Shown: piece after piece, positions 38,435 through 60,817 of the stretch
Layout of the letters: each line of letters starts with the position of its first letter
Position numbering within the stretch: position 1 is the first letter of the stretch
Assembly: GCF_000172555.1 (NCBI RefSeq)
Contig: NZ_ABOX02000026.1
Span: 1-64,000 of the forward strand
Source: Pedosphaera parvula Ellin514
Lineage (GTDB): Bacteria; Verrucomicrobiota; Verrucomicrobiia; Limisphaerales; Pedosphaeraceae
Length of the DNA stretch: 64,000 nucleotides
Direction: 5' to 3'
Notes under the pieces: model-generated
What the model saw: the letters and a program-made list of their open reading frames with translations, nothing else
Told to the model about the DNA's origin: nothing
Databases searched by the model: none
Position numbers and translations under genes: made by a program

Positions 38435-38569
38435 ATGAAATCCAGAAAACTGACAATTGCGTTAGTGGTGCTATTAATTCCCTTTTGGGCGGGCTATTCG
38501 TGTCGGCCTTGTCTCAAACCAAAATCCTCCTACCATTCGGAAATTTCTTTTGGCATTCGGTATAACTGA
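38435..38569 (+). pseudogene. Third anchored-protein gene of the operon, truncated by a mobile repeat
   Basis: An open frame of 44 codons starts directly after the preceding stop. The first ~22 residues (MKSRKLTIALVVLLIPFWAG) are the same kind of N-terminal membrane anchor as in the two upstream genes. At 38501 the sequence switches to family A mobile-repeat DNA, which encodes the rest of the frame (CRPCLKPKSSYHSEISFGIR) and the TGA at 38567-38569. The original C-terminal domain is absent. A short membrane peptide could still be made. Confidence 0.65.
38501..38564 (-). mobile_element. Half copy of the family A repeat
   Basis: Read on the minus strand from 38564, the sequence TATACCGAATGCCAAAAG, followed by AAATTTCCGAATGG, the purine-rich block GGAGGATTTTGGTTTGAG and ACAAGGCCGACA, matches the left half of the full copies at 53938 and 60597. 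It stops at the loop of the nested hairpin (GGCCGACA). The other half is missing. It truncates the third anchored-protein gene. Confidence 0.8.
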
Positions 38570-38706
38570 AATTTCAAGATAAATATTTCCAAAAAGGGTA
38601 TAAATCGTTCGACATGGTTTCGCAATTTGAGGCAGGATGTGTGGTTTAAGGGGGGAATCCGGAAAGCGACATCAAACCGCTGATGGAATCCCGCCTGAGT
38701 ATTTTT

Positions 38707-41700
38707 ATGAGCTATTGGAATGTGAAATTGAGAGTGCTGCTGGGGATTTGCGCGGGGCTGCTTGGTGTGCAGTCCGCGCAGGCGTTGACCAATGGTTTGG
38801 CGCTGACTCCGCCGATGGGTTACAACACGTGGTATGCGCGGGGCAGCAGCATCAACGAAGACTATATCAAAAGCATTGCCGACACAATGGCCACGAACGG
38901 GATGAAGGCTGCTGGCTACGAGTACGTCAACATGGACGACGGCTGGGCGGGCTACCGCGACACGAATGGAGTGATGATTGCCAACACGAACAAGTTTCCC
39001 AGCGGAATCAAGGCCTTGGCGGATTACGTGCATGGGAAGGGCTTGAAGCTGGGGCTTTATACGGTTTTTGGGCCGACCACCTGCGCGCATCTGCCCGGCT
39101 CCTACGGGCATGAAGTTCAGGATGCGCAGACCTATGCACAGTGGGGCATTGATTACCTGAAGTATGAAGGATGCAGTTTCCCCGATCCACTGGCGCATGA
39201 AACTGAAAAGGCGGTGCAAATGCGGGACGCCTTGGCTGCGACCGGCAGGCCGATTGTATTTACAATGTCGACCGGTCCGGCTGAGTCGTGGATGCCGGAT
39301 GTGTTGAACATGTGGCGCGGTGCGGGCGATAATGTGCCGCACGGTTGGAATACTTTCTTAAGGCATATGGATTTTGTGGCGCAGACGCCGGAATTAGCCG
39401 GCCCCGGACACTGGAATGACCCCGATGTCATGGACCTGGGTTTTGGGGGCACGGAACAGGACAAGGCCATTCTCACCATGTACTGCATTGTGGCGGCGCC
39501 TCTGCTGTCACCAACTGTTAGTTCGGGTTACCTCAATATTTTGACGAATGCCGAGGCGCTGCAGGTGAATCAAGATCCGGCAGGCATACAAGGAGCGTGC
39601 GTGGCCACGAACGGTGACTTGCAAGTGTGGAGTAAGCCTTTGAGCGAAGGGGTGAATGTGCGCGCCGTGGCGCTGTTGAATCGAGGCACCAACACGGCGG
39701 ATATTACAGCCAACTGGGGTGATCTGGGTTTCCCGGCAGGAGTGGCAAAAGTTCGGGATTTGTGGGCACGGGCCTATGAAGGGAATTTCACGAACAGCTT
39801 CACTGCCACAGTGCCGGGCCAGAGTGTGAAGTTTTTGAAAATTGCCTGGGGTTCAACTCTTAATCCGCCGGTCGCGGGAACGAATTATCTCAGCGACCTC
39901 AATTGGCTGGCCGGCACCACCTGGACGGTGTTTCCTCCGGGCATTCAGATGGACAAAAGCGGCGCAACGCAACCGATGAGCATGCATGGCATACACTACA
40001 GCAAAGGCCTGGGAACAATTGCGTATACCCGTGCTGAATATTTCCTGGGAGGAGTGGCAACGCGATTTCAGGCCACCGTGGGCGTGGATGACGTGGCGGG
40101 AGGTGTTTTGGGTTCCGTGGTATTCCGTGTCTATGCAGATGGAATCAAGATTTACGACAGTGGATTAATGAGGAACTCTTCGGCGTTGCAGCTCATTGAT
40201 GTGGACATCACTGGCCGTCAACGGCTGGTGCTGGAAGTGAACGACGGTGGGGACGGCAACGTAAACGATTATGGCGATTGGGCCAATGCCCTGATTACTG
40301 CGCTTCCACAGCCCCCGGCAGCCCCCGTTGGCCTTGCCACCATCTCGACAGGAAATCAAGTGAGCCTGACCTGGTATGCCATTCCCGGAGCGACCAGTTA
40401 CACGGTCAAGCGGTCCAGTACCAGCGGCGGCCCATATCAGGTAGTGGGCACTTCCACCAATTCTTCCTTTGCAGATATCAACAGCTCCGGGAGCACCTAT
40501 TATTATGTTGTTTCAGCGGCGAACCTTTATGGACAGAGCACCAATTCCCTCGAAGCCGCGGCAGTTCCTCCTTCCTATTGGGCGAACACCATCACTGCGG
40601 CGCCTCAGAACTGGGAGGCAACCCCCAATTGGACCAACACCATTTCATTTCCCAACAATCTTTACGTCGAGGCCGTGATCAACGCGAATATTGTTTCCAA
40701 TCAAACCATCAATGTGAATCAGCCCATCTCGATCGGCTCGCTCACCCTGGGAGGCACGGATGCGTCTGCATCCTACACCATCGCGGGAAACGGAGGCACG
40801 TTGACCTTTAATAACGGCTCCGGTGTCAGTGTCTTGACACAACTGGCCGGCAGCAAGGGAGACACATTGGCTGTTCCCATCACGCTCAACAACCAGACCA
40901 CGGTTAGAACCCTCTCTTCTTATCCGTTGAATATTTCAGCTGCGCTATCCGGAGGAGGTGCGCTGGTTAAAAATGGTTCCGGGACACTTTCGCTGGGCGG
41001 CTCCAATTCGTTCACCGGCGGTTTAAAGATTGCCCAGGGAACTCTGCTGCCAGGCAATGCTTTCGCATTGGGCTCCACGGCTGGCGGAACAATTGTGGAC
41101 AATTTTGCCACCTTGGACCTGAACGGTGTTGATGTGGGGGGGGAGCAGGTGACGGTATCAGGAACGGGTTCGGGATTTGCGGGAGCCATCGTCGATAATA
41201 ACACCAATGGAAGCCCGGGGAGACTTCAAGCTGTAACTCTGGGAGCTAATGCGACATTTGGCGGGCAAAACAATTGGTCGATCAGAGGCACGAATGGGTC
41301 TGCGCCCTCCGGCTCTTTGAGCACAGGGGGAATGGCTTATAATCTTACCAAAATGGGAACGAACCTGGTTTGGCTCAGCTCGATTGATGTGGATTCCAGT
41401 TTGGGAGATATCGATATTGAGCAAGGGTTTCTGGGTTTCGAAGGCGCAACTACATCGATGGGAAATCCGGCCCGCACGCTCACTGTGAAACCGGGAGCCT
41501 CCTTGGTTTTCAATCAAACCACAACTCCGTGGAATAAAGTCATTGTGCTCAATGGGGATGGGCTGAACCAAACTCTTGGGGGTAATGGTGGCAGCAACAC
41601 TATTGCGGGTCCAATCACGCTCAACGGCTCCTGCCGGATTGATGTCAGCGCCGGTTCGCTTACCTTTGCCGGCCTCCTTGGCGGCAATGGCACTCTTCGC

Positions 41701-42744
41701 AAGAACTTGACCGGCACACTTTATCTCTCTGCAACCAACAACTTCACGGGAGACACCCTGGTCAATGCAGGGGTACTGGCCGTGAAAGACGGCGGATCGA
41801 TCGCCAGCAAAAATATCGTCATTAACTCCGGCGCCACACTTGATGGAACCAGTGCAAATCAAGGTGAGATCACTCTGGGAGATGGGCAGACACTGGGCGG
41901 CCAGGGAACGATCAAAGGCAACCTGACACTTGCCGCAGGAGCAACGCTGCTGTCGAGCATTGGTAATGGAACACCGGTGTTCAACAATTCACTGATACTG
42001 GGCGCGGGCAGCAAATGTGCGTTTGAATGGAGCAAGCCGCCCATAACCAACAGCCTGGTGCAAGCGGCCAGCTTGACGTATGGCGGACAACTGGCTTTGA
42101 CTTCCTTAACGAGCAATTCGCCGGTCATTGGCGATGTTTTCAAACTCTTTAATGCCAGCAGCTATGCCGGCGCCTTCCAGACCATCTCCCCTCAAATTCC
42201 CGGACCCGGAATGCTATGGGACACCACGGGCTTAACCACCGACGGCACCATCCGCATTATCGCGGGAACATTGCCCCACATTGATTCATTTTCAATGACT
42301 GGAAACAGCCTGCGAATTTCCGGCCTCGACGGCAAACCGAACGCCCCTTACCACGTGCTGGCATCCACAAACTCGGCGCTGCCGCTCTACCAGTGGATTC
42401 GGATTTCAACCAACACCTTCGACGCAGCCGGTCACTTCTCCTTTACCAACCTCATTGACCACGCCGTTCCAGGAATGTTTTTTAGCCTGGACCTCTCACT
42501 GGCTGAATCGCTGCCACAATTGAGGTTGGTATCCCTGCCGGGAAATAATTTGGTTTTGACCGCGGGCGGCGGCCCGGCCAATGCCAGTTGCACAATATTG
42601 GCCTCGACAAATATCGCCCTCCCGCTGGCTCAATGGACGCACATCGCCACCAATCAACTGGATGCCTACGGAAACTTCTCCCTGACGAACACTATCAGTC
42701 CCGGCGTGACTAAAAGGTTTTATTTTCTGCAAATTGCCAGGTGA
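38707..42744 (+). CDS. Secreted GH27-family protein (alpha-galactosidase-like) with NPCBM, Fn3 and beta-strand repeats
   Basis: 1345 residues from the ATG at 38707; an ATG at 38683 adds eight. A signal peptide ends near VQSAQA. Residues ~28-360 are a GH27 barrel (LTPPMGYNTWYARG, YEYVNMDDGWAGYRD, AGPGHWNDPDVMDLG). The presumed nucleophile motif reads DYLKYEGC instead of the family's LKYDxC, so Asp is replaced by Glu; the acid/base Asp in MWRGAGDNV is present. Then come an NPCBM sugar-binding domain (~400-540), Fn3 (~545-625), autotransporter-type repeats (ALVKNGSGTLSLGGSNSF, TGTLYLSATNNFTGDTLV) and two C-terminal modules ending RFYFLQIAR. Activity on alpha-galactosides is plausible but uncertain. 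Confidence 0.88.
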   Translation: MSYWNVKLRVLLGICAGLLGVQSAQALTNGLALTPPMGYNTWYARGSSINEDYIKSIADTMATNGMKAAGYEYVNMDDGWAGYRDTNGVMIANTNKFPSGIKALADYVHGKGLKLGLYTVFGPTTCAHLPGSYGHEVQDAQTYAQWGIDYLKYEGCSFPDPLAHETEKAVQMRDALAATGRPIVFTMSTGPAESWMPDVLNMWRGAGDNVPHGWNTFLRHMDFVAQTPELAGPGHWNDPDVMDLGFGGTEQDKAILTMYCIVAAPLLSPTVSSGYLNILTNAEALQVNQDPAGIQGACVATNGDLQVWSKPLSEGVNVRAVALLNRGTNTADITANWGDLGFPAGVAKVRDLWARAYEGNFTNSFTATVPGQSVKFLKIAWGSTLNPPVAGTNYLSDLNWLAGTTWTVFPPGIQMDKSGATQPMSMHGIHYSKGLGTIAYTRAEYFLGGVATRFQATVGVDDVAGGVLGSVVFRVYADGIKIYDSGLMRNSSALQLIDVDITGRQRLVLEVNDGGDGNVNDYGDWANALITALPQPPAAPVGLATISTGNQVSLTWYAIPGATSYTVKRSSTSGGPYQVVGTSTNSSFADINSSGSTYYYVVSAANLYGQSTNSLEAAAVPPSYWANTITAAPQNWEATPNWTNTISFPNNLYVEAVINANIVSNQTINVNQPISIGSLTLGGTDASASYTIAGNGGTLTFNNGSGVSVLTQLAGSKGDTLAVPITLNNQTTVRTLSSYPLNISAALSGGGALVKNGSGTLSLGGSNSFTGGLKIAQGTLLPGNAFALGSTAGGTIVDNFATLDLNGVDVGGEQVTVSGTGSGFAGAIVDNNTNGSPGRLQAVTLGANATFGGQNNWSIRGTNGSAPSGSLSTGGMAYNLTKMGTNLVWLSSIDVDSSLGDIDIEQGFLGFEGATTSMGNPARTLTVKPGASLVFNQTTTPWNKVIVLNGDGLNQTLGGNGGSNTIAGPITLNGSCRIDVSAGSLTFAGLLGGNGTLRKNLTGTLYLSATNNFTGDTLVNAGVLAVKDGGSIASKNIVINSGATLDGTSANQGEITLGDGQTLGGQGTIKGNLTLAAGATLLSSIGNGTPVFNNSLILGAGSKCAFEWSKPPITNSLVQAASLTYGGQLALTSLTSNSPVIGDVFKLFNASSYAGAFQTISPQIPGPGMLWDTTGLTTDGTIRIIAGTLPHIDSFSMTGNSLRISGLDGKPNAPYHVLASTNSALPLYQWIRISTNTFDAAGHFSFTNLIDHAVPGMFFSLDLSLAESLPQLRLVSLPGNNLVLTAGGGPANASCTILASTNIALPLAQWTHIATNQLDAYGNFSLTNTISPGVTKRFYFLQIAR

Positions 42745-42891
42745 GTGAAACCGTCCTCCAAGCCTTATTTTTACTGGCCGAGGGCTCCGAGACTACCGGG
42801 ATGTGCCTGCCAGTGGCAGCGCAGAGCCATGACTTTTTTGCGAATCCAGAAGACCGCACGTGTGCCGTGGGCTCTTAAAGGCCGCATCAGT

Positions 42892-43629
42892 TTAAGCTTT
42901 GCCGGAAAGATAATATTTCATGAACATCTCCACATCCTCAGGCGTGCCCAGGCTGTGCATCGTGCCCTCAGGCAGGTGATGGGTCCGAATATTTTTGCCG
43001 GCGAGAATCAGCTCGTTGTAAACCGGGCATACAAAAAATTGACCGCTGGTGGTCAGCCCTTTCAAAATCATTCTCTCCGATGCCTCGACCAAGTCCCGCG
43101 CCCGTCGAAAATAATACAAACCCACAGTCGCCTGCTTGCTGATGGGCCGCTTTTCCGCAACCGCAATCACTTTTCCATTCGCATCCGTTTTTGCGAACGA
43201 CCACCGTGGATGTGTGGCGGTGAAGGTGAGAATGCAACCATCAATTCCAGATTCGCGGCAGGCTGCATAAAATGGATCCAGGCTCGATGTAATAATTTGA
43301 TCTCCGTTGGCGATCAAGAGCTCATCATCCAGGTTCAACTCATCCACCGCCAACAGCACGGAACAGAGCGCTCCGGCGGTTTCATTTTCGAGCCCAATCA
43401 CCCGGCAGTTTGGCGCCAGCAAACGCAGCATGTCGCCCAGGTAAAACTGCGACAAATGTTCCTTGCGACAAATGAAGGTGTATTGAACCGGCTGCGGTGG
43501 CGCCAGATTTTCGAGCACCATCTCAATCATGGAACGATTACCGATCTCCAGCAAAGGTTTCGGAAAAGTGTGACCTCTTTCGGCAAAACGGCTTGCCTTT
43601 CCGGCCATGGGTATGATGACTTGCAACAT
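42892..43629 (-). CDS. Nucleotidyltransferase of the second glycan cluster
   Basis: A 245-residue NTP_transferase protein: VIIPMAGKASRFAERGHTFPKPLLEIGN (G-x-x-S/G-R and PKPL), LLIANGDQIITSSLDPFY with the Mg-binding Asp, WSFAKTDANGKVIAVAEKRP and a final LGTPEDVEMF. It is paralogous to 13522-14286 but diverged. It lies 3 bases after the end of the HAD gene, in one operon with HAD and cupin genes. It activates a phosphorylated sugar or alcohol to an NDP derivative. The substrate is unknown. Confidence 0.87.
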   Translation of the reverse strand: MLQVIIPMAGKASRFAERGHTFPKPLLEIGNRSMIEMVLENLAPPQPVQYTFICRKEHLSQFYLGDMLRLLAPNCRVIGLENETAGALCSVLLAVDELNLDDELLIANGDQIITSSLDPFYAACRESGIDGCILTFTATHPRWSFAKTDANGKVIAVAEKRPISKQATVGLYYFRRARDLVEASERMILKGLTTSGQFFVCPVYNELILAGKNIRTHHLPEGTMHSLGTPEDVEMFMKYYLSGKA

Positions 43630-43632
43630 AAC

Positions 43633-44256
43633 TTATCCCCTCGCCCCTTCCAACGCGCGCTTTACGCGATCGTAATCAACTTCAGTAAAACCACTCACCT
43701 GGCAAACCTGTGCCCCGCTCCGCTTCGCGGCTTCGATTCCGTGCGGCGCGTCTTCAACAATGATTACTTCCTCCGCTTTGACACCCAATTTTTGGAACGC
43801 GGCCAGGTAAATCTCCGGGTCGGGCTTCGCGTGAGTTACATCCTCGTTGCTCAACACGAAATCAAATAAATCAAAAATGCCACTGCCCCGCAACATGAGT
43901 TCGACACTCTCACGAATGGAATTGGAGCAGACAGCGAGTTTGTAGCCATCGCGCTTGAGTTGATGAACCATGAACTCCTTTTCAAATACCGGTGTGCAAC
44001 TCCGCAAAATCTCCTCGCGGGTATATTTCTGTTTGATCTTGTTGACCAGAGTGTGCAAACCGCGCGGAAACCCTTTTTCAACGGAGAGCATCTCGAGCTT
44101 CTTGCGGGTTGGAAGTCCATTGTAGGTGGTCAGATGTTCGTAACGTGCAATGTTATAACCGAACAATCCCAGCGCCCGATTTAATGCTTCGTAATGCCAC
44201 TCTGTCGCATCTACCAACACTCCATCCAAATCGAATAAAACGGCTTTGATCTTCAT
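43633..44256 (-). CDS. HAD-family phosphatase (beta-phosphoglucomutase-like)
   Basis: A 207-residue HAD-IA protein. Motif I is VLFDLDGVLVDATEWHYEA with the nucleophile Asp and acid Asp, motif II is KLAVCSNSIRESVELML, and motifs III/IV are KPDPEIYLAAFQKLGVKAE and VIIVEDAPHGIEAAKRSG. The helical cap lies between ~18 and 85. It dephosphorylates or isomerises a small phosphorylated metabolite. It overlaps the cupin gene upstream by ATGA and is tightly followed by the nucleotidyltransferase, so it may supply or trim the substrate of that enzyme. Confidence 0.9.
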   Translation of the reverse strand: MKIKAVLFDLDGVLVDATEWHYEALNRALGLFGYNIARYEHLTTYNGLPTRKKLEMLSVEKGFPRGLHTLVNKIKQKYTREEILRSCTPVFEKEFMVHQLKRDGYKLAVCSNSIRESVELMLRGSGIFDLFDFVLSNEDVTHAKPDPEIYLAAFQKLGVKAEEVIIVEDAPHGIEAAKRSGAQVCQVSGFTEVDYDRVKRALEGARG

Positions 44257-44591
44257 GCTTTGAAATCTGGAGAAGGATACTTATCTCCGCTCACACATGG
44301 CAACTTCACCACTACCGTCGTGGTATCTGTGAGCGGCACAAAGTCAGTGGCCTGCCCGGGTTCAATCTTGATAATCTCCCCCGCCCCAACCTCCTCCCCG
44401 CTCATCCGCACCCGTCCCGAGACAATCAGCGTCAATTCAGTTGCCACTTTGTGATAATGAGCCCCTTCGGATTCACCGGCCTTGTAATGCTTTACCGCCA
44501 CTTCCACGGCGTCGCTCTTCACAATGGTCGGGGAAAAATTTCCCACGAACCAACCTTTGGTGAATTCGTCCAGTTTGTAGCGCTTCAACAT
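44253..44591 (-). CDS. Small cupin-fold protein
   Basis: A 112-residue single cupin domain: VAVKHYKAGESEGAHYHKVATELTLIV holds the first motif (G-x5-H-x-H-x3,4-E) and EIIKIEPGQATDFVPLTDTTTVVVKLP the second (P-x-x-x-x-H/T), where the final His is replaced by Asp/Thr-type residues. It may bind a metal and act as a sugar epimerase, isomerase or binding protein. It is coupled by ATGA with the HAD phosphatase downstream, which suggests one pathway. Confidence 0.85.
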   Translation of the reverse strand: MLKRYKLDEFTKGWFVGNFSPTIVKSDAVEVAVKHYKAGESEGAHYHKVATELTLIVSGRVRMSGEEVGAGEIIKIEPGQATDFVPLTDTTTVVVKLPCVSGDKYPSPDFKA

Positions 44592-44654
44592 GATAATGCT
44601 CTGACAGTTGGAATCCGTTTATGTTTCAAGAAATGCTTTTGCTGCACCCAAAAT

Positions 44655-45329
44655 TCAGCCAAAGAAGTCTCTGGCATCCAATGCATAGTCTGTGCAGATC
44701 CCATCGATGTGCCAAGACTTAAAATCCTGCCAGCGACGCCTCATTGCCGCACGGTCAAACCCATGAATCTCCGGGGAAATTACGTAAAAAAGCCGGCCGG
44801 CCTCCTGCACTTTCTTCACTTCACTTTCGGTAAGCCAAAGTGAGTCAAACTCATCAGCCCAAACAACTTCTGCCGGTATCGACAGGCATTGCGCCAAACT
44901 TTCATTACGGTCACTCAGACGTGAGGCCATGCGAACCTGATTGCCACCGGGCAGCGAACGAATCTTTTTTTGGGAAGAACCCGGAGTCCTGGACTCCAAA
45001 AGCTCGAAATCAAAATAAAAACATTTCCGACCCAACCGCCCTGCCTTCATGAGTTCTATCAAGACCGGTTCGTAGCCCAGTTCCTTCACATTAATGGCCA
45101 GTTCCATTTCCGGATGCTGCTTAAATATATTTGTATAGGCGTCGAGGGCATTATCCGGAGTCCGGGGATGTGGATCATGGCTGATGTAAAACTCACCAGC
45201 AGCGTCCCGCCGCAAATCTGTTTCCAGACCGAATCCCAGTTCCAACGCCTTCGCACAGGCCGCCAGGGAATTTTCCACCACCGAACGCGGACCGGTCAGG
45301 TTTGCCCGATGGGCCATAATGGTAATCAT
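44655..45329 (-). CDS. Glycerophosphodiester phosphodiesterase-like protein
   Basis: A 224-residue TIM-barrel protein of the GDPD type: MAHRANLTGPRSVVENSLAAC (HR and E-N), LGFGLETDLRRDAAGEFYISHDPH (E-x-D and HD) and a late ICTDYALDA. These match the metal and catalytic residues of the family (His, Glu, Asp, His). GDPD cleaves glycerophosphodiesters, but relatives inside glycan clusters may act on polyol phosphate links. The start can be 45329 or 45317 (MAHRAN). It is 63 bases upstream of the cupin gene on the same strand, within the same operon-like run. Confidence 0.8.
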   Translation of the reverse strand: MITIMAHRANLTGPRSVVENSLAACAKALELGFGLETDLRRDAAGEFYISHDPHPRTPDNALDAYTNIFKQHPEMELAINVKELGYEPVLIELMKAGRLGRKCFYFDFELLESRTPGSSQKKIRSLPGGNQVRMASRLSDRNESLAQCLSIPAEVVWADEFDSLWLTESEVKKVQEAGRLFYVISPEIHGFDRAAMRRRWQDFKSWHIDGICTDYALDARDFFG

Positions 45330-45397
45330 AAAGCTGCGCTATCAAGCGAGAATCGACCAAAAAAATGGCCGACTGGAAATCTTCGCAGGCATGGCGA

Positions 45398-46066
45398 TCA
45401 GGGTTTGCGGGCAATCACCAGAAACTGTTTGCCGAAAATGCTCCATGCCGGCCGCAACTTTAGATACGTCCGGAGGAAAACAAGCGGATACTCCGGACTA
45501 TTAACCATCGTGTATGGAAGAAATCTTCCTTCGCAGCGATCGACCTGGAATCCACGAGTCGTGACAGCTTCTTTCAGAGACTCCTCGGTCAGCGCCAAAT
45601 GGTGATCCCAAAATTCCCAATATTTGCCGGGCAAATACTTGATATTAGGGCCCATGGCGATCAGGCGGCCGCCCGGTGCCAGGCAACGTCGCGCTTCGTC
45701 AAGAGTCCTGCCCAGGGCAGCCTTATCCGGCAGATGCTCAAAAAAATTGCTCGTGAAAACCACGTTGAGCGAACCTTCCGGTAACTGCCACTTTTGGGAG
45801 CAGTCCTGTTCCAAAAAAGTTACCGACTTCTCCAAAAAACCCGGGGCGTTCGGGTTTAAGTCCATTGCATACCTTTTGCCGCACTGGACCTGATTGATGA
45901 ATTCGCCATAACCGCAACCCAGATCCAAAACCGTCTCCGTCGAACCGATATATTTTTGGAAAAAGTCCCCGAGCAGGATCGACCAGACACGTGAACGATA
46001 CTGGCGCGTGCTTTCAAATCGCGTTTCGTAAATACGCTTTAAATCCTGGGGATCGTTGGCGCTCAT
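45398..46066 (-). CDS. Class I SAM-dependent methyltransferase
   Basis: A 222-residue methyltransferase with motif I ETVLDLGCGYGEFINQV (residues ~44-60), YAMDLNPNAPGFLEKS as motif II, GSLNVVFTSNFFEHLPDKAAL as the post-I acidic/FEHL motif and LAPGGRLIAMGPNIKYLPG. It has the profile of methyltransferases that modify sugars or lipids in cell-surface pathways. It overlaps the GT2 gene upstream by ATGA, so the two are coupled. Confidence 0.88.
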   Translation of the reverse strand: MSANDPQDLKRIYETRFESTRQYRSRVWSILLGDFFQKYIGSTETVLDLGCGYGEFINQVQCGKRYAMDLNPNAPGFLEKSVTFLEQDCSQKWQLPEGSLNVVFTSNFFEHLPDKAALGRTLDEARRCLAPGGRLIAMGPNIKYLPGKYWEFWDHHLALTEESLKEAVTTRGFQVDRCEGRFLPYTMVNSPEYPLVFLRTYLKLRPAWSIFGKQFLVIARKP

Positions 46067-46893
46067 TTCTTTTTGTAATCACCGCGGCTGAAATATTTCT
46101 CGAGCCATATGTAGAGACAAATAAACAAGTACCGACTCCCCATCTCCTTGATCTTGAGCTTTGCCTCACCGGTTCGCCGGTTGCGCCAGGTGATGGGAAT
46201 AACGGTCCAGGTGTATCCGCGCACAATGGCTTTCAACGGCAGCTCCACCGTAAGGTTGAAATGAGGAGAGATTAGCGGCCGGCACCCCTCAATCACGGTT
46301 TTGCGATAACATTTGAAGGCATTGGTCGTGTCATTGAGCTTGACCCGGAAAAGCACCTTCAAAAAGAAATTTGCCAGCCGATTCACAAACAACTTGAAGC
46401 GGGGATAATCAATGACACCGCCACCTTTCATGAAACGGCTGCCAAACACACAGTCGTATCCCTCTTGCAACTTCTTCCAATACCGCACCACATCCCGGGA
46501 ATCATCGGACTCATCCGCCATCATGATGGCCACTGCATCGCCCGTGGCCTGGTCCAGGCCATGGATGATTGCGCGGCCAAATCCATGCAATCCATTGTTT
46601 TGAACCGGCCGCAATTCGCGGATTTGTTTGGCGACCTCCGTCAAAATCTCCCACGTCCGGTCCTTGCTCCCGTCATCAACCACCACGATTTCATGGGGAA
46701 TATTTTGCAGTTTGAGCTCCAGATGCAGATGCTCCACGGTCGAGGCGATGCAACCCTCTTCATCCCTTGCGGGGATTACCACGGAAAGCAACGAAAGCGG
46801 CTTGGCGGCGGACTTTTGTTCGCCTGTTTTCAAGTCATTAACTCCGCCGGGACTTGCCCCTGCTTTTTCAATTGGTTGTGCTTGCAACATCAT
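46063..46893 (-). CDS. Glycosyltransferase family 2 (dolichol-phosphate-sugar synthase-like)
   Basis: A 276-residue GT2 protein: LLSVVIPARDEEGCIASTVEHL, EIVVVDDGSKDRTWEIL (DDGS at ~74-80) and VAIMMADESDDSRDVVRYW (the acidic DESDD motif that binds Mg). The region RNRRTGEAKLKIKEMGSRYLFICLYIW at the C-terminus carries a basic, membrane-proximal tail. It resembles polyprenyl-phosphate-sugar synthases (DPM1/GtrB), which make lipid-linked donors for GT-C enzymes such as 50415-52340. It is coupled by ATGA to both neighbours. Confidence 0.9.
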   Translation of the reverse strand: MMLQAQPIEKAGASPGGVNDLKTGEQKSAAKPLSLLSVVIPARDEEGCIASTVEHLHLELKLQNIPHEIVVVDDGSKDRTWEILTEVAKQIRELRPVQNNGLHGFGRAIIHGLDQATGDAVAIMMADESDDSRDVVRYWKKLQEGYDCVFGSRFMKGGGVIDYPRFKLFVNRLANFFLKVLFRVKLNDTTNAFKCYRKTVIEGCRPLISPHFNLTVELPLKAIVRGYTWTVIPITWRNRRTGEAKLKIKEMGSRYLFICLYIWLEKYFSRGDYKKK

Positions 46894-47960: not shown

Positions 47961-48011
47961 TCAGTTTTGTGTTTCGGCGCGTAAATGGCGGCGATCAAAG
48001 GCTTACATTGG

Positions 48012-49067: not shown

Positions 49068-49183
49068 GCTACCTGAATACCAGCCGTCCGCAAGCGAGGC
49101 AATAACAAAACCCGCGATTGGGCCCGCTCATGATCTGAGTTGAAAGAACCCGCATTCCACACACGCGCCGCTCCCCCAGTGGT

Positions 49184-50380: not shown

Positions 50381-50414
50381 GGTTTGTTCTTTCAATTCCG
50401 GGTGGCGGATCGCT

Positions 50415-52340: not shown

Positions 52341-52545
52341 TAAATCACAAACATCTGTAAGGTCACGGCGACAGGAACTCGCATGGCGTACACCCAATAA
52401 TTATTTTACCGGCACCAATACGGGACAACCTATTTAGCCTATCAATCGCGTTCGGACTGGGTCAATGAGAAAGCCTTCCGACTGAGGTGGCATACGTGCC
52501 CGCACTTCCCGCTTTCTTTTTGGCCAAGGCATCTTATTTTAAGGC

Positions 52546-53031: not shown

Positions 53032-53377
53032 TCCGAGCCTGCTGCCAGCATTATCTGCACAGTCGGAAAATGCATCGACCCTGCCGATTCGCTTGATGCC
53101 TCCATGATAATAGAACCCACGATGGCATTCGCGCAGCAGAGCCGATTCAACCAGAACATGGCAGACGTTATCTCCTTCTCCCTTTGAAATGGGAGAAGGC
53201 CGGGATGAGGGAAGATGCGCTCGGGCTCTTCGTCGACTCGGGGACCTCCCGCACCTCCAACCGGGGTTGCTCCCCAGTCGCAGATCGCCTTGAACTGCCT
53301 ACTCGACGCTGGTCCAGCCAACCAAGTGATCAGGCACTGATTATGCTCCCTCATCACATCGAAATCTAAGATTTATT
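53032..53377. other. Intergenic region after yajQ
   Basis: About 346 bases without a credible gene. It holds a 9-bp hairpin, CCTTCTCCC/GGGAGAAGG (53174-53199) with an 8-base loop, which resembles the repeated GGGAGAAGG filler seen elsewhere in such genomes. No T-run follows, so a terminator is not supported. Confidence 0.4.
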
Positions 53378-53593
53378 ATGCAAGCCGAAGCATTGATTAA
53401 ATTGATCGAAGAAATGATCGAAATTAAAGTCCGGCAGCAGGCCGGAGCCAACGCTGCCATCAACTCCAAACTCCCCCCTGAATTAGCCCAGCTGATAGCC
53501 CGGACCAAAGTGGCCGATCGCGACCGAATCCTCCGTGTACGGAGCGAATTGCTGCAACTTTTGGGAAACGGAACCGGTGGGTTCGCTTCTTAA
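53378..53593 (+). CDS. Small hypothetical protein
   Basis: A 71-residue helical, soluble protein with heptad-like spacing (LIKLIEEMIEIKVRQQAG, PPELAQLIARTKVADRDRIL, VRSELLQLL). It has no known domain. It is preceded by a weak RBS region, but composition and length support a real gene. It is isolated from its neighbours by about 350 bases upstream and 900 downstream. Function unknown. Confidence 0.55.
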   Translation: MQAEALIKLIEEMIEIKVRQQAGANAAINSKLPPELAQLIARTKVADRDRILRVRSELLQLLGNGTGGFAS

Positions 53594-54508
53594 AGTGAAT
53601 CTATCCTGCAATGGACTGAATGAGCCGGCCGGGTAATCGCCGAAGCTTTCACCGGCGAGATAAGCCAACCTACTCCTGGCGAAAAGCAAATGGCCTTGAA
53701 ATGCCAGGCACCGTGGCAACGGACGTTTGCTCCTGGAATGAAATGGTTTTGATTACCTTGATCACCAATCACCCCGCTTTGTAGTGCGATAATTGCAACG
53801 AGTCCTTCGACTGGGCATCGTTGTCTTAATTGCGGACAACATGGGGAGGAAAGTTCCCTGATAGTGGAGCGGCGGAAGTCCAGCAGAGCGCACTCTCGGC
53901 ATGGTGTTTTAGGTTGGCAGATTTAGTTTGCCAGACTTATACCGAATGCCAAAAGAAATTTCCGAATGGCAGGAGGGATTTTGGTTTGAGGCAAGGCGGA
54001 GACCGCAGGCGCTATCCTTTGATAGCGACAAGGGCGACAACGCCGCCTCAAATCAAAAGCACCCTGCAGCCAACGACTAATGAATTTTCTTGTCCCCAAA
54101 GCCATGACTTTTCAGTCTCCATTTTCCTCAAATTTATTTCCTTCGTTCATTCTGTTTCTTTTCCCCATTTCGGAAATTAATTTTGGCATTCGGTATAGAT
54201 CATGGTTTGCAAACTGGGTGTTCAAAAATCTGTGTGGGTTAAGCAACTTCTGAGTAAACCATTGTACAGCAGAACTGATAAGGGATGTCAGTTGGGCCAT
54301 GACTAATGAATCCAGTTGATCTCTGGCTGGAATTCTGTAGTTTTCGCCCAGAGCGTATATTCAATCCAGACTGCCCGTCGAGGGGCGTTGATGGTTTCGG
54401 AGGACGAACCTCCCAAAAGTAATTGCATCCCCCCTGCATTCATGCAGCGCACTTGTAAAAAATCACGCTCACGTTCGGAATAAAGCGGTCTGTTTAAATT
54501 TGTAACAA
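53594..54508. other. Long intergenic region containing family A copy 1
   Basis: About 915 bases. The only structured part is the family A element (53938-54197). Frames here are short and lack homology-like text. The flanks (53594-53937 and 54198-54508) show nothing I can name. They may hold the promoter of the GH16 gene (54509), but no convincing -35/-10 pair was found. Confidence 0.4.
53938..54197. mobile_element. MITE-like element, family A, copy 1 (260 bp)
   Basis: Terminal inverted repeats start TATACCGAATGCCAAAA on the left and, on the other strand, TATACCGAATGCCAAAATT on the right; they stay alike for about 31 bases (ATTTCCGAA...TGG). A nested inverted repeat (TTTTGGTTTGAGGC against GCCTCAAATCAAAA) makes an inner hairpin, with a smaller one (CGCTATC/GATAGCG) at the centre. 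It has no coding capacity. The TATA ends could reflect a TA target. A second copy at 60597-60817 and a half copy at 38501-38564 share the sequence. Confidence 0.82.
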
Positions 54509-57500
54509 ATGACTTCTCTGTTTGGTGACTTATTTCGGAAGGCGCGGCAACGCGCAATTTTCATCATTCGCCTCGGCGCCATTGTGACAATACTTCAGGC
54601 CGTGAGCTTCAACCCAGCCGCCGCGTCGCCCCCACCCGGCTATTACCTGGCATGGGGTGATGAATTCAACGGAACGTCACTGGACACGAGCAAATGGACC
54701 TATTGGTTGCCCGGAAAGTGGAACGATGCCGTGAATGTCACCAATGCGGTGACCGTTAACGGGAGCAACCTGGTCATCACGACGTATAGTGCCCAGGGAA
54801 CCAATTATTCAGCCATGCTCGCCTCACAGTTTCACTTTCATCCGCGCTACGGTTACTACGAGTCGAGCATCCAGTGGGGCAACTCAAACGGAAATTGGTC
54901 GGCCTTTTGGCTGAGGTCACCGACGATGGGCACTTACCTGGATGACGCTTATGTGTCCGGCGGGGAAATGGACGTCTGCGAACATCGCTACGTGGGCATC
55001 TACGGCACCAACATCAGCAAAATTGTTTCCGACAACATTCACTGGAACGGCTACGGTGCGGCTGAGCAAGACTCAGGCAGCCCCAACGTGGGCAATGTCG
55101 CCACAGGCTTCCACACCTACGGACTTCTCTGGAACGGCGGCACCTACTCCTTTTCCATCGACGGCGGAGAAGTATGGAACGCCAACGGCACCGGCACACC
55201 AGTCTTCGGCAGCGATGCCTACGTAATATTAAGCAGCGAAGTGAATGACACTTCGACGACCTGGGCAGGCTACATTCCTGCCAGCGGTTATGGCAGCCAA
55301 GCAACCAGCACCGTCAAAATGACTGTCGATTACTTCCGATACTACGCGCCAACCAATGTCCTCTTCTGGACGGGCACCAACTCAACTGCATGGAACAACT
55401 CCGCGAACTGGGTTGCCAATCTAACGCCTGGCGCGGCAAGCGATCTCACCTTCTCTTATCTGAGCGCCAATCTGAACAGCGTTTTGGGAGCCAACATGAC
55501 TGTCGATGGATTGGTTTTCCTCGAAACTGCCAACAGCGCTTCCATTGGCGGCGCAAATACGCTCACACTCGGTTCGGGCGGCATTGACATGGTGGCGGCG
55601 AATCAGAACGTCGCGCTGAACGCACCCATCACCGTGGGCAGCAATCAAAGGTGGACGGTTGGCCGCAATAATCCCGGCAATCGTTTGACCGTCAACGGGA
55701 ACATTGGCGGCACGGCATCTCTGACCAAAGCTGGCTACGGCACCTTGGTTTTGAACGGAACGAACAGCTTTTCTGGCGCGTTGAACGTGGATACTGGAGG
55801 CTCAGCCACGAACGACGGCAAATTAATCATCACCAGTTCCGCCGCCATCGCCAACGTTGCTTCGCCAATTTTTATTCGCAACACTGGCACGGCAGTTTCC
55901 ACACTAGAGCTTTCGAACAGTGTTGTCGTTTCGCAGAACGTCAGCCTGGCTGGCCGTAATACAAATGCGGCCGCCATCGAAGCACTTTCGGGTTCCAACT
56001 CTCTGAATGGCGGGATTACCCTAACCGGGGGAGGCTCGAACTACGTGCTCCAGTCTGACTCTGGTCTGCTTCAGGTAAGCGGCTCGATCTCAGCCGGCAG
56101 CACCGCCACTGGCCCCTGTATTCTGACGTTCCAGGGGAGCGGAGATTTTTCCATTCCAGCCACAATCCAAAACGGCAGCTCCTCGGCACTCAGCGTCGTG
56201 AAAACCAATTCCGGCACACTGATACTTTCGGGGCTGACTACCTACACCGGCGGCACCACCAACTGGGGCGGCACCTTGTTCGTCAATGGTTCGCTCGCCG
56301 GTCAATTGGTGATCATGGGTGGTGTCCTGGTTGGCGTCGGGACAGTGGCTGGCGACACCACGCTTCAAGGCGGTGAGATTTCTCCGGGCAGCGCTGTCAC
56401 CAATTCCATCGGCAAACTTTCCTTTGGTGGCAACCTGACTCTGGGACCGGGCGCTGTGACTGCCATGGAAGTAAGCGCGACTGCGCAAACCAACGATCAA
56501 TTGAACGTGGCAGGCACCTTGAACCTTGGAGGAACTTTGTATGTGATAAATCTGGGAGGCACGTTCGCGCCCGGCCAGAGCTTTAAACTCTTCAACAGCG
56601 GTAATTGTGTCGGAACATTTTCCGCGCTGGTTCTCCCGTGGCTCAGTGCCGGGATGGCATGGAATACGAACGACCTGACGAATGGCATCTTGTCCATCGC
56701 ACCTGCTCCACGGCCATTAGGACCGACGACGGCCTACGCAGCAGCCATCCGCGCCTATCAGCCCGCCGGATACTGGCCATTGCAGGAGACCAACGCTCCC
56801 GCCTCCGCGGCCACGGAAACCAACCTCGGTTCGCTCGGCTCCGTGGGCAATGCCTATTACGTCGATACCAATCCAACCGACGTCACGCTGGGCGTCCCGG
56901 GCGGTCTGGCGGCGGATACCGACACCGCAGTGGCGTTCAATTCGGCAGCCCAGACTTTCGCGTTTGTACCGCGCGCCAGTCCGACTTTGACCCTTATGCC
57001 GCCCTTCACAATTGAAACCTGGTTCAAGCCGCAGACGGCGGTTTATGGCGTCATCCTGGGCGAAGGCGGCGGTGCCAGCCTGAATGGTGGCCCAACCTAT
57101 GGCGGCTTCCAATTTGGCTGGGCGGGTGGCAACAAGACGCGGTTTGAATCGCAGCTGTATCATTATGGCATCAATGCCAGCAGCCTGTTTGATACTCCTA
57201 CGGGTTATTCTGTGAATACCTGGTGCCACTACGTCTTTACTTACGACACCTCCTCCACTGCCACTATGTACGTCAACGGGCAGGCGATGGCCAGTGCCAC
57301 CCTCTCATACGTTGCCGATAATTGGTCCCCGCTTACCATCGGCAATGGCAAATGGAACGGCCTCGGTGCCCAGCGCGCGGTCAATGGAACGATTGACGAG
57401 GTGGCCGTGTACACGAACCTCCTCTCACCGTCAGACATTTCAGCGCACTACTCCGCCGGCACCAATAATGCCCCAGCGACTGCCTACAAGCAGTTGGTCC

Positions 57501-58366
57501 TGAACAATCATCCGTTGCTCTATTTCCGGATGAATAATCCGGGTTCCAGCATACCCGGCCCGGCGCCAACTCCGGTCGCGGTCAACTTCGGCTCTGCGCC
57601 GGTGGATGGAGCCTATCTTCCGGGAACTGTTCCGGCTGGCGTCTCGGGCCCCTCTGCCACAGGCATGGGAACCAATCCCGCGGCTTGCATGCTCAACGGC
57701 ATCTTCTCCTGCATTGACGCCGGCTACGACACTGCCTTCAATCCGACAAACACCCAGCCGTTTACGGCCCTGTTGTGGTTCAAAGGCTATCCTGCCGATA
57801 GTTCCGTGCAGACCCTTATGGGCCATGGTGCCACCTCGTGGGCGATCAGTCTGGACGGTTCCACCGGAGACTTGATCTGGAATTCGGGCGCCGGCTTTGC
57901 CACCTCACCCAATGTATACAACGACGGCTCCTGGCATCAGGTGGCAGGCGTTTATGACGGTGCAACTAATTATTTGTATGTTGATGGCGTTCTGAGAGGG
58001 GCAAACGCGGCGACCGGCACCATCGCCGGGAACACGAACAATGTGTATCTGGGCGGCGACCCCGACAATACGAGGGTAGGAGTCAACGAGCGTTACTTTG
58101 CCGGGGCCATCACGCAAGCCGCCTTCTTCACGAACGCGCTGAGCCCGGTGCAGATTCAGGCAACTTACCAGGCCGCCCTCACTCCCCCGCCGCTGTCATT
58201 GGGCATCCGGAATGTGAACGGCAACCAGGTGGAATTGAATTGGAATTACGGCACCCTGCAAGCCGCCAGCAATGTCAACGGCCCATACACTGATCTTCCG
58301 GGAGCGAGCCAGCCTTACACCATTCCAACCACCAGCTCGCAATTATTTTACCGTGTCCGGCGTTGA
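54509..58366 (+). CDS. Secreted GH16 beta-glucanase-like protein with repeats and LamG domains
   Basis: 1285 residues. After a signal region (~1-40, ending NPAAAS) comes a GH16 domain (~41-280): YYLAWGDEFNGTSLDTSKW, GYYESSIQWGNSNGNWSAFW, and the catalytic motif GEMDVCEHRYVG (E-x-D-x-x-E intact). Autotransporter-type repeats follow (ASLTKAGYGTLVLNGTNS, LIITSSAAIANVAS, TNSGTLILSGLTTYTGGTT), then two LamG-like domains (~755-990 and ~1000-1210) and the C-terminal module ending SQLFYRVRR. It would cleave a beta-1,3- or mixed-link glucan or galactan outside the cell. No autotransporter barrel is present. Confidence 0.9.
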   Translation: MTSLFGDLFRKARQRAIFIIRLGAIVTILQAVSFNPAAASPPPGYYLAWGDEFNGTSLDTSKWTYWLPGKWNDAVNVTNAVTVNGSNLVITTYSAQGTNYSAMLASQFHFHPRYGYYESSIQWGNSNGNWSAFWLRSPTMGTYLDDAYVSGGEMDVCEHRYVGIYGTNISKIVSDNIHWNGYGAAEQDSGSPNVGNVATGFHTYGLLWNGGTYSFSIDGGEVWNANGTGTPVFGSDAYVILSSEVNDTSTTWAGYIPASGYGSQATSTVKMTVDYFRYYAPTNVLFWTGTNSTAWNNSANWVANLTPGAASDLTFSYLSANLNSVLGANMTVDGLVFLETANSASIGGANTLTLGSGGIDMVAANQNVALNAPITVGSNQRWTVGRNNPGNRLTVNGNIGGTASLTKAGYGTLVLNGTNSFSGALNVDTGGSATNDGKLIITSSAAIANVASPIFIRNTGTAVSTLELSNSVVVSQNVSLAGRNTNAAAIEALSGSNSLNGGITLTGGGSNYVLQSDSGLLQVSGSISAGSTATGPCILTFQGSGDFSIPATIQNGSSSALSVVKTNSGTLILSGLTTYTGGTTNWGGTLFVNGSLAGQLVIMGGVLVGVGTVAGDTTLQGGEISPGSAVTNSIGKLSFGGNLTLGPGAVTAMEVSATAQTNDQLNVAGTLNLGGTLYVINLGGTFAPGQSFKLFNSGNCVGTFSALVLPWLSAGMAWNTNDLTNGILSIAPAPRPLGPTTAYAAAIRAYQPAGYWPLQETNAPASAATETNLGSLGSVGNAYYVDTNPTDVTLGVPGGLAADTDTAVAFNSAAQTFAFVPRASPTLTLMPPFTIETWFKPQTAVYGVILGEGGGASLNGGPTYGGFQFGWAGGNKTRFESQLYHYGINASSLFDTPTGYSVNTWCHYVFTYDTSSTATMYVNGQAMASATLSYVADNWSPLTIGNGKWNGLGAQRAVNGTIDEVAVYTNLLSPSDISAHYSAGTNNAPATAYKQLVLNNHPLLYFRMNNPGSSIPGPAPTPVAVNFGSAPVDGAYLPGTVPAGVSGPSATGMGTNPAACMLNGIFSCIDAGYDTAFNPTNTQPFTALLWFKGYPADSSVQTLMGHGATSWAISLDGSTGDLIWNSGAGFATSPNVYNDGSWHQVAGVYDGATNYLYVDGVLRGANAATGTIAGNTNNVYLGGDPDNTRVGVNERYFAGAITQAAFFTNALSPVQIQATYQAALTPPPLSLGIRNVNGNQVELNWNYGTLQAASNVNGPYTDLPGASQPYTIPTTSSQLFYRVRR

Positions 58367-58401
58367 GCTTGGTCGAGGCAAATTCATAGTCACCAACAAC
58401 T

Positions 58402-58463
58402 GGGTCAGGTCAAATTGTTGACACTCGTTTGAAGCGGGAGTGTAGATAAGTTGATCTGACCCG
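58402..58463. repeat. REP-like 62-bp imperfect palindrome
   Basis: GGGTCAGGTCAAATTG at 58402 pairs with the reverse complement GGGTCAGATCAACTTA at 58463. The 25-base arms match at about 20 positions and end in ACACTC, around a 12-base loop. The GGGTCAG tip is typical of REP elements mobilised by RAYT (Y1) transposases. It lies between the GH16 gene and the beta-helix gene. Confidence 0.6.
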
Positions 58464-58595
58464 TTTATTATCGGCGCAACACGGCCTACTACCAACGGAG
58501 TATGTCGTCATGATATTTCCGCCGGATTCCCCCGACACTGCGACCACGTTGGTTCCAAAGTGCTATTGTGGCATTTCCAAGGTGCGTATTACAAC

Positions 58596-58620
58596 TGAGG
58601 CGCTATAAAACAACGCCTCA
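58596..58620 (+). other. Hairpin in the leader of the beta-helix gene
   Basis: A perfect 7-bp stem, TGAGGCG/CGCCTCA, with an 11-base loop lies 35 bases upstream of the ATG at 58656. It could affect translation of the next gene, but there is no family match. Confidence 0.35.
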
Positions 58621-58655
58621 CGGCGAAAGCAGAAAAATTAAGCGGCCAAACGATT

Positions 58656-59678
58656 ATGCAAAGAATTTCGAACCTTTTAACTGTGGCTGCCGCTTTTGGC
58701 TGCCTGAACTTCATTACCATCACCGCTCATGCGCAAGGCAGCCTCACGCCGCCGCCCGGTGTTCCCGCACCGGTGATGAAGTCGCTGGATCAAATCGAAG
58801 CGCGCACGCCTCTGATTTCAGGAGCCCCGGGTGTCAGTTATGCCAACGGCCTCTACACCATCACCCAGCCGGGCGGCTATTACCTGACCGGAAACCTGAC
58901 CATGACCAATAAAACTGGCGCAAGTTTCATAACCTTTCTTACGAATAATGTGACCCTGGATCTCAACGGCTTTACGTTGTTCGGCACTGCCGGCAACATG
59001 GGCACTGCAATTGATGGCTCTGGGTTTGGATACCGGATCTTCAACGGTCACATCGTTGGCGGCACAACCCAAACCAACGGTGTATTTACCAAGGCAGGCT
59101 TCTACAAGGGAATCGAGACCTTTAGCGGCAATGTTAATTTCGGCACAGACACAATCATTTCCGATATTACCGTGCGTGGTGTTAGAGATCGCGGAATTCA
59201 AGGTTCCTTAAACAGCGTTGTCGAGCGTTGCCTCGTGGACACAGCGGGTGCTGAAGGAATGATAGTCGGATCCGTCCGCGACAGCCGTGCCATCAATACC
59301 AGCGCTGATGCCATCGAGGCTGCGGCAGTCATGAACAGCGTGGGTAAATGCGTCGGGACGGGTAATGGAATCTCCAGTTATTTGGCTGAACCTTGCAATG
59401 TTCAGAATTCAACCGGCGAGGCGGTTAGCGGGGCTGGGATTTTTGCAAATAATGCCATCAATTGCCGGGGCAAGAGTGTGTCTTACATTGGGTTGACTGC
59501 CAACACCGCCTTGAACTGTTCTGGTGAAAGCACAAGTGGAACCGGCCTTTCAGCATACGTTGCTAATTCCTGTACAGGCAACCGCACTGGCGGCACTGCG
59601 ATTCAGGCTAACATTGGTATCGCCTGCATCTCGCTCGGCGGAACGTTCAGTATCACTTCCAAGTACAACATGCCTTGA
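58656..59678 (+). CDS. Secreted right-handed beta-helix protein
   Basis: A 340-residue protein with signal peptide (MQRISNLLTVAAAFGCLNF, cleavage after AHAQ). Its N-terminus SLTPPPGVPAPVMKSLDQIEAR is a recurrent lead-in of verrucomicrobial beta-helix proteins. Beta-helix-like segments follow (TLDLNGFTLFGTAGN, IISDITVRGVRDRGIQG, VVERCLVDTAGAEG) and short C-terminal repeats rich in NC-x-G and ANTALNCSGES, AYVANSCTGN, AIQANIGIAC. Cysteines recur in these repeats. It may bind or act on polysaccharide, but the pectate-lyase catalytic residues are not identifiable. The next gene is 34 bases downstream. Confidence 0.78.
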   Translation: MQRISNLLTVAAAFGCLNFITITAHAQGSLTPPPGVPAPVMKSLDQIEARTPLISGAPGVSYANGLYTITQPGGYYLTGNLTMTNKTGASFITFLTNNVTLDLNGFTLFGTAGNMGTAIDGSGFGYRIFNGHIVGGTTQTNGVFTKAGFYKGIETFSGNVNFGTDTIISDITVRGVRDRGIQGSLNSVVERCLVDTAGAEGMIVGSVRDSRAINTSADAIEAAAVMNSVGKCVGTGNGISSYLAEPCNVQNSTGEAVSGAGIFANNAINCRGKSVSYIGLTANTALNCSGESTSGTGLSAYVANSCTGNRTGGTAIQANIGIACISLGGTFSITSKYNMP

Positions 59679-59712
59679 TGGAGCGGTGTATTCACAATAA
59701 ACCACAAGGGGC

Positions 59713-60582
59713 ATGAAAACGTTTACCGCTCTTCTCACATTGGCCCTGGCCGCTTCGGCCAACGCCCAATCAACCGTCGCTGAAGACGAAAGCTATGCTT
59801 GGGGCACCAACCTTGGCTGGATCAACTTCCGCGCCGATCGTCCCAACCTCGGTGATGGCGTCCGCGTGGCGGATACATGCCTCGGCGGCTACGTCTGGTC
59901 CCCCAACATCGGATGGATCAATTTTGGTGATGGCACGCCAGCCAACAACCTGCGCTATGCCAACACCGATTCCAGCGATTACGGAGTAAATCAGGATGGT
60001 GCCGGGAATCTTTCGGGCCTGGCCTGGTCGCCAAACATCGGCTGGATCAACTTTGGCTGGGCCAACACCGCCAATCCAAACCGTCCACGCTTTGACCTCT
60101 ACAGCGGCGAATTCTCCGGTTATGCCTGGAGCGCCAATTGTGGCTGGATCAACCTTGGCTCCGGCCTGCTTCGCACGGAAAGCATCGCCATCACGGATAG
60201 TGACGGCGACGGAATCTCCGACTCCTGGGAGTTGGAAAAAGCCGGCAACCTGACGACGCTTACCGCCGAAGGCGATGCCGATGGTGATGGTCTGAAAGAC
60301 AAGGCCGAGTACATCATGGACTCAAATCCACTTGTTCCCAACGAGGGACTTCGCATCCTGTCTGTGGCGCACAATGTCGCAACGCATCTTTCGTTGGTGG
60401 AATGGACCAGTCGTCCCACCCGCACTTATGCCCTTCATCAGAACACAGATCTGGCTGCAAACTTTTGGAACGACCTGGGCACACGGCCCGGTTCATCGGC
60501 GGCATCGACTACAGCACAAGTTTTCTCGTATCAACCGTCTGCGTTCTACCGAATCGAAGCAAAATTGCCACTGACTCCTTGA
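59713..60582 (+). CDS. Secreted GWINF-repeat protein with calcium-type repeats
   Basis: A 289-residue protein with a clean signal peptide (MKTFTALLTLALAASANAQ). Four repeats carry the core W-x-x-N-x-GWINF/L (TNLGWINFRADR, SPNIGWINFGDG, SPNIGWINFGWA, SANCGWINLGS), each spaced by ~30-45 residues. Two thrombospondin-3-like Ca-binding loops follow (DSDGDGISDSWELEK, DADGDGLKDKAEYIMDSNP). The last ~75 residues form the shared module ending PSAFYRIEAKLPLTP. The repeat resembles carbohydrate- or surface-binding modules. The ligand is unknown. The start is 34 bases after the beta-helix gene. Confidence 0.78.
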   Translation: MKTFTALLTLALAASANAQSTVAEDESYAWGTNLGWINFRADRPNLGDGVRVADTCLGGYVWSPNIGWINFGDGTPANNLRYANTDSSDYGVNQDGAGNLSGLAWSPNIGWINFGWANTANPNRPRFDLYSGEFSGYAWSANCGWINLGSGLLRTESIAITDSDGDGISDSWELEKAGNLTTLTAEGDADGDGLKDKAEYIMDSNPLVPNEGLRILSVAHNVATHLSLVEWTSRPTRTYALHQNTDLAANFWNDLGTRPGSSAASTTAQVFSYQPSAFYRIEAKLPLTP

Positions 60583-60596
60583 AGCAACATCAGTTC

Positions 60597-60817
60597 TATA
60601 CCGAAGCCGAAAGAAATTTCCGGATGGCAGGAGAGATTTTGGTTTGAGGCAAGGCCGACAACGCCGCCTCAAATCAAAAGCACCCTGGACACCTGACTAA
60701 CGAGTTTCCTCTTCCTTAAGGTCATGGCTTTTTCAGTCTCCACTTTCATCCGGCTTATTGCCTCCTTTCATTCCGGTTCTTTTCCCCATTCCAGAAATTA
60801 ATTTTGGCATTCGGTAT
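60597..60817. mobile_element. MITE-like element, family A, copy 2 (221 bp)
   Basis: Left end TATACCGAAGCCGAAAGAAA, right end read on the other strand ATACCGAATGCCAAAATTAA. The internal text matches copy 1 (GATTTTGGTTTGAGGCAAGG, CAAATCAAAAGCACCCTG, CAGTCTCCA). About 37 bases of the inner hairpin present in copy 1 are missing here. The left tip differs by two bases from copy 1, so this copy is more decayed. It lies between the GWINF gene and the esterase gene. Confidence 0.8.

Follow-up and report, generated by a model that had tools for sequence, protein, structure and literature searches.

The window analysed here, 64,000 nucleotides long, comprises positions 1 to 64,000 of contig 26 in the draft genome of Pedosphaera parvula Ellin514 (G000:C26:1-64000; 7.41 Mb in 102 contigs, 95.9% complete). 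It contains copies of a short repeat, Family A, which an earlier note, made from the letters of the window, had described as resembling a miniature inverted-repeat transposable element (MITE), with two full copies and one half copy on the minus strand. All three were recovered, together with the nested inverted repeat reported inside them (Table 1). Copy 2 begins where the note had placed it, 14 bases after the stop codon of an open reading frame (ORF) whose end is at 60582, while its last base lies just beyond the proposed end of 60817. Terminal inverted repeats (TIRs) of about 32 bp, beginning with TATACCG, are found at both ends of the element; copy 1 is bounded by TATACCG...CGGTATA, and the nested hairpin (GCAGGAGGGATTTTGGTTTGAGGC ... 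GCCTCAAATCAAAAGCACCCTGC) sits in the left half. Copy 1 has no gene of its own: the sole ORF of at least 100 amino acids that enters it runs in from outside. In copy 2, some 37 inner-loop bases are missing, as had been stated, and the half copy, read from 38564 down to 38500, has 92% identity over 66 bases. The 13-base tip reported at 12227-12239 is present as well; it is a small remnant at most, because no similarity is seen alongside it.

Table 1. Family A copies, their parts and related repeats in the window (positions are those of the window).
Feature	Position	Strand	Remarks
MITE copy 1, full	53938..54197	+	260 bp; ends TATA...TATA
Left TIR, copy 1	53938..53969	+	outermost TA is the presumed target duplication
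Right TIR, copy 1	54166..54197	-	
Nested hairpin left arm, conserved (copy 1)	53974..53992	+	
Nested hairpin right arm, conserved (copy 1)	54045..54065	+	
Inner-loop module, ~37 bp (copy 1)	53994..54030	+	missing in 8/40 non-nested two-tipped copies
Spacer, pyrimidine-rich, fast-diverging (copy 1)	54068..54163	+	16.2% from consensus
MITE copy 2, full	60597..60818	+	222 bp; without inner-loop module; final bases TATT
Half copy (left end), ~65 bp	38500..38564	-	break inside nested hairpin
Possible tip remnant, 13 bp	12227..12239	-	no similarity seen beyond
Separate MITE-like repeat	12314..12601		288 bp; ~30-bp inverted ends; TTA on both sides

Searching the whole genome, as the note had proposed, revealed many further copies. 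The 17-base tip, with at most 2 mismatches allowed, gave 62 forward and 53 reverse matches (115 in total), compared to 1 forward and 0 reverse matches for a control in which the tip is read backwards. The repeat family is far above chance. BLAST with copy 1 yielded 90 candidate places, 40 of which were scored, so that its list covers part of the copies. In the stretches examined there are 44 two-tipped copies with at most 4 mismatches per tip (46 minus two alternative tip pairings), which supports the MITE reading: 8 measure 218-225 bp, 32 measure 246-263 bp and 4 measure 407-554 bp. The alignment comprises 40 copies, four nested ones being excluded, and their pairwise identity ranges from 67% to 100% with a median of 86%. 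There are also at least 21 half copies (10 left ends and 11 right ends), a lower bound drawn from about 100 of the 115 tip places and obtained from 26 single-tip places by removing L085 and L086 (tip only), L083:114 and L095 (contig ends) and L082 (second end decayed). Further left-end fragments are found in C60, C14, C17 and C43. The copies are scattered between genes across the genome and are gene-less transposon derivatives. Three of the 44 fall in predicted genes, compared to 506 of 880 TA sites drawn at random from these stretches, as classed by a simple gene caller that left 5 of the copies and 99 of the random sites unclassed at edges.

Family A is multi-copy, short, gene-less and bounded by TIRs, as IS630-related MITEs are. 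In addition, its TIRs are common to an IS630-family insertion sequence (IS), found in relatives rather than in P. parvula itself. Across the order, a search with a relaxed form of the tip gave matches in 26 of 320 genomes, belonging to 18 of 118 genera, and 0 matches for the control. At G029:C3:2149-3288, a complete 1140-bp element with both tips (0 and 1 mismatch) encloses a 364-amino-acid protein, P0001, which matches the NCBIfam model transpos_IS630 (NF033545) at 197 bits (cut-off 100) and the Pfam model DDE_3 (PF13358) at 94 bits. By motif, we take its DDE residues to be D203, D285 and E316, the latter two being separated by 30 residues. Judged from its sequence, this partner element carries a predicted DDE transposase of the IS630 type.

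Relatives of P0001 at an E value of 1e-20 were detected in 9 of the 320 genomes (14 rows representing 12 distinct loci). Seven of the 26 tip-bearing genomes have such relatives, and the remaining 19 have tips without a detected partner. An inward-pointing tip lies within about 320 bp of the transposase match with at most 3 mismatches out of 17 in 8 of the 12 loci, and with at most 4 in 11 of them; the corresponding numbers for a reversed-tip control are 0 and 1. In 7 of the 12 loci (one of which, L170, has 5 mismatches), the best tip is 21 bp from the C-terminal match. The end of the transposase element in G103, TATACCGAATGCCAAAA, agrees with the window tip at all 17 bases, and a transposase remnant with a tip at 3 mismatches is present in G001, which belongs to the same genus as P. 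parvula. A scan of named genomes for this IS630 lineage gave 9 loci, and in a Methylacidiphilales metagenome-assembled genome (MAG; L215) an open transposase reading frame lies between inward tips with 5 and 6 mismatches (7 and 7 for the control). Scanning the named genomes with the tip itself gave 0 matches, in a set from which records of P. parvula or very near genomes may be absent, and P0001 had no match at 1e-20 among the PLSDB plasmids. As side observations, a contig labelled as an Akkermansia muciniphila MAG (L216; the label may be wrong) carries the tip-matching lineage, and the element at L137 has a single tip only.

These results argue strongly for Family A being an IS630/Tc1-type MITE, non-autonomous and moved by an IS630-family transposase encoded elsewhere. 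In the proposed mechanism, a DDE transposase of this family would bind the terminal repeats, excise the element and insert it at TA, which would be duplicated in the process; cut-and-paste chemistry is assumed as in ISY100. The tip-matching IS630 lineage would have been the one that moved Family A, and the partner may have been lost from the P. parvula genome or be missing from its draft assembly. In the passages of the ISY100 paper available to us, this member of the IS630/Tc1/mariner group inserted in vitro at TA in 34 of 39 cases and at AA/TT in two (PMC2170065). The likeness lies in the IS630-family transposase, the binding of TIRs and the TA duplication, whereas ISY100 is autonomous and active and Family A is without a gene.

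We then turn to the target site. Inspection by eye of the flanks of 30 copies revealed no repeat beyond TATA. For the comparison with empty sites that the note had also suggested, G001 holds one 197-bp MITE of Family A (C136:15352-15548), which is absent from the orthologous place in P. parvula, reading ...CCACCAACTAAATGCACC... there. This empty place has a TA where the element would have inserted. A duplication of TA and one of AATA fit the pair equally well (209.0 each), ahead of TATA (206.0) and none (203.5). In a sister family with like tips, a single TA is the best fit (125.5, against 119.0 for TATA and 115.0 for none) in the one readable alignment of two, with G071 unread: G069 is filled, ...GTGGC-[element]-ACCGGCATG, and G070 is empty, ...CTGGTTAACTGGCATG. 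For Family A, its own empty site lends support to TA duplication without settling it. The base preceding the terminal TATA is a pyrimidine at 72 of 88 ends, compared to 47% before background TA; with a pyrimidine mostly standing 5′ of the target TA, there is a tendency towards YTAR targets. This bias resembles the CTAG preference reportedly described, going by its title, in an IS630 paper by Tenzen and Ohtsubo.

Joining the flanks of in-gene insertions gave no consistent reading-frame repair and thus no evidence of a target-site duplication, and no paralogous empty site among the loci examined was usable. A query that covered the two full window copies found no usable orthologous site for them in G001, where matches near copy 1 extend only to window position 53445 and there are none near copy 2. 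About 45 bp short of the site of a Family A copy in P. parvula (L101 3025 / L090 2967), the G001 contig comes to an end, which is perhaps an assembly break at a repeat.

Being palindromic, intergenic and multi-copy, Family A could also be likened to REP/REPIN-type elements moved by a tyrosine (RAYT) transposase. In the part of the literature available to us, the REP/REPIN unit is a small palindrome of 20-40 bp (PMC3733652), without long TIRs, as opposed to the 220-260 bp of Family A with its repeats of about 32 bp. The TA at both ends, the single-TA empty site of the sister family and the DDE transposase between like tips in relatives also speak against such an origin, which we consider scarcely credible.

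Several results weigh against mobilisation by an IS630-family transposase. In the P. parvula draft genome, all 13 matches to NF033545 stay below the cut-off (the highest at 50 bits), no relative of P0001 was detected at 1e-20 and PF13358 matches one fragment of 42 positions at 28.9 bits (cut-off 28.6); an intact IS630 transposase was therefore not found in the 102 contigs. When 58 genomes were searched with the element body, matches were confined to P. parvula and G001, with G012 matching at the ends only. At the junction of the Family A empty site some 3-4 bases have diverged, the outermost bases of the filled G001 copy are AA and TT in place of the expected TA, and the sister-family result comes from a single alignment. 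Finally, one of 22 comparisons between MITE interiors and IS ends reached p below 0.01 (G112), and on sequence comparison the resemblance seems too weak for claiming descent. An IS with the same terminal repeats, such as the note had hoped to find, is hence present in relatives, with a predicted IS630 transposase, and not as an intact partner in the P. parvula genome. It is for this reason that we infer, rather than observe, mobilisation in trans.

The missing partner also bears on present activity. Family A could be a dead relic whose IS630 partner has been lost and whose copies now only decay, an explanation that does not concern its origin and that overlaps with mobilisation by an IS630-family transposase. 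The half copies, and full copies reaching down to 76% identity to the consensus, are in line with decay. However, two copies with differing flanks show 100% identity along their 260 bp, with a third at 99.6%, and transposition therefore appears to have been fairly recent; furthermore, an IS present in several copies can drop out of a draft assembly of 102 contigs. We regard the relic as a real possibility, if not quite an even one.

One remnant in P. parvula raises the alternative that another IS630 subgroup moved Family A. At G000:C43:17740-18649 (L206 2241-3150), a Family A copy with nested cargo directly adjoins a decayed IS630-like transposase gene of another subgroup. However, this copy stops at consensus position 186 without a right tip, no family tip was found on the far side of the remnant in the 6 kb examined, and in relatives the tips bound the P0001 lineage, which makes the involvement of such a subgroup very unlikely. 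Another transposase remnant, in C36 (L072 2320-3033), lies about 170 bp from a right-end half copy; from its motifs it is presumably IS481-like and not IS630.

Within the IS630-type MITE, the nested hairpin stands out by its conservation. Divergence from the consensus by substitution is 3.6% and 3.9% for the two TIRs, 2.2% and 4.1% for the hairpin arms, 7.7% for the inner loop and 16.2% for the spacer. The arms thus diverge as little as the TIRs and the spacer about four-fold more; the copies were found partly via their tips, which favours the apparent conservation of the tips and not that of the hairpin. The element in G001 likewise retains the hairpin while being without most of the spacer. 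The note's guess of a two-module structure holds in part: some copies are without the inner-loop module (Table 1), the hairpin sequence is inverted in one of these eight, and the arms are conserved like the tips. In the inverted case (L093 3329-3548), the hairpin appears as if it had been flipped between its arms. A 24-base left arm, with at most 3 mismatches, occurs 54 times in the P. parvula genome (compared with the tip lists, not all read), and no free hairpin, i.e. one without tips, was demonstrated among these matches, of which C44:60190 and C41:58694 were not read. The seemingly tip-less hairpin at C17:45751 retains TATACCG with part of the tip deleted, and that at C8:174587 belongs to a copy with a lost left tip. 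The nested hairpin probably acts in cis and would be maintained through selection among the copies that proliferate.

Conservation of the arms, together with the intergenic bias, would also be expected if the copies were kept as functional hairpin RNAs or intergenic regulatory elements, with mobility being secondary. The whole element folds on the plus strand at -97 kcal/mol with a z score of -7.4 relative to shuffles. When only the interior is folded, copy 1 has z scores of -2.3 and -1.5 on its two strands and copy 2 has -1.7 and +0.3, and the terminal repeats therefore account for much of the fold. Among 20 hairpin pairs in 40 distinct sequences, no two-sided changes were seen and covariation was not above shuffles; since the changes are one-sided only, we do not claim a conserved RNA structure or an RNA role for the nested hairpin. 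An Rfam scan of 53800-61000 gave no match up to E 0.1, and no promoter-like or terminator-like site was found in 53900-54240. The purging of harmful insertions would produce the same intergenic bias. It is improbable that the copies are kept mainly as functional RNAs or regulatory elements.

Some copies of Family A carry other repeats as cargo. L087 (C3) and L088 (C30) each contain a further repeat, about 270-290 bp long, which sits in the nested hairpin at an identical position in both, next to a substitution that they also share. Aligned over 495 bases (61 gapped), these composites have 97.8% identity, but their outer flanks are dissimilar. The simplest reading, taken from these two loci, is that the nested composite moved as one unit by means of a trans-acting transposase. 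The cargo has a standalone form in the window, the separate MITE-like repeat in Table 1, which is 93% identical to it. A different cargo is common to L075 and the truncated C43 copy (94% over 277 bases), with the same right junction and with a left junction that agrees if L075 lost the inner-loop module. L067 contains a third cargo.

Like-tipped elements in relatives have differing interiors, and 8 of 15 elements folded have an interior z score below -3.9 on at least one strand, both window copies being among the other 7. In a sister MITE, an interior piece of about 52 bp (L113 1549-1600) was observed, and such a piece has about 50 listed matches of 45-54 bp in G068, G070 and G071 (g19) in which the tips do not align, at places that were not read. 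From these three observations one may conjecture, tentatively and as the less likely case, that the IS630-type tips serve throughout the order as a "shell", picking up palindromic cargo time and again and spreading it, and that the Family A hairpin is now as indispensable for proliferation as the tips, perhaps because it enhances transposition or makes intergenic insertions tolerable. Separately, 137-bp elements in G114 and G031, two genomes of different families (L119 524-660 and L123 1501-1637), have a nearly identical CCCCTCACCC palindrome inside, pointing to horizontal spread or to the capture of a shared palindrome.

The nearest published counterparts, described here from the parts of the cited papers available to us, are found in other bacteria. 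RUP of Streptococcus pneumoniae (107 bp, 9-bp TIRs, 108 copies) has been proposed to be mobilised in trans by IS630-Spn1 (PMC2229807, PMC3049150), and its distribution gives no clear evidence of more mobility than that of BOX (PMC3049150). Like Family A, it is a short non-coding intergenic repeat with TA targets and IS630-like terminal repeats. It differs in its smaller size and shorter TIRs and in having its IS in the same species, whereas Family A has a conserved nested hairpin and a partner found only in relatives. By analogy, Family A would work in the same way as RUP with IS630-Spn1. The Correia/NEMIS elements of Neisseria have TA ends and 24-bp TIRs and fall into two size classes, the longer of which has an additional 50 bp of internal sequence (PMC2229807); going by this description, Family A resembles them in its TA ends, TIRs and two size classes. 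They belong to another organism, and the published passages (PMC2229807) mention no nested hairpin. In the titles and opening lines of abstracts of the papers listed, with subscription literature largely outside the scope, we found no description of Family A under Pedosphaera parvula repeats, IS630 MITEs, Verrucomicrobia miniature inverted-repeats, nested or palindromic MITEs, or the 13-base tip text.

Family A is thus a member of a known and well-understood class, the IS630-related MITEs, in which its unusually well-conserved internal hairpin stands out. With the link to one IS630 lineage, short repeats in 18 genera of one Verrucomicrobia order can be annotated, and they are usable for testing trans-mobilisation beyond a few model cases. 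Judging by the composite copies, shells of this kind are able to take along other repeats. Finally, a hairpin that is conserved like the terminal repeats offers a tangible starting point for finding out which parts, other than the ends, a bacterial MITE requires.

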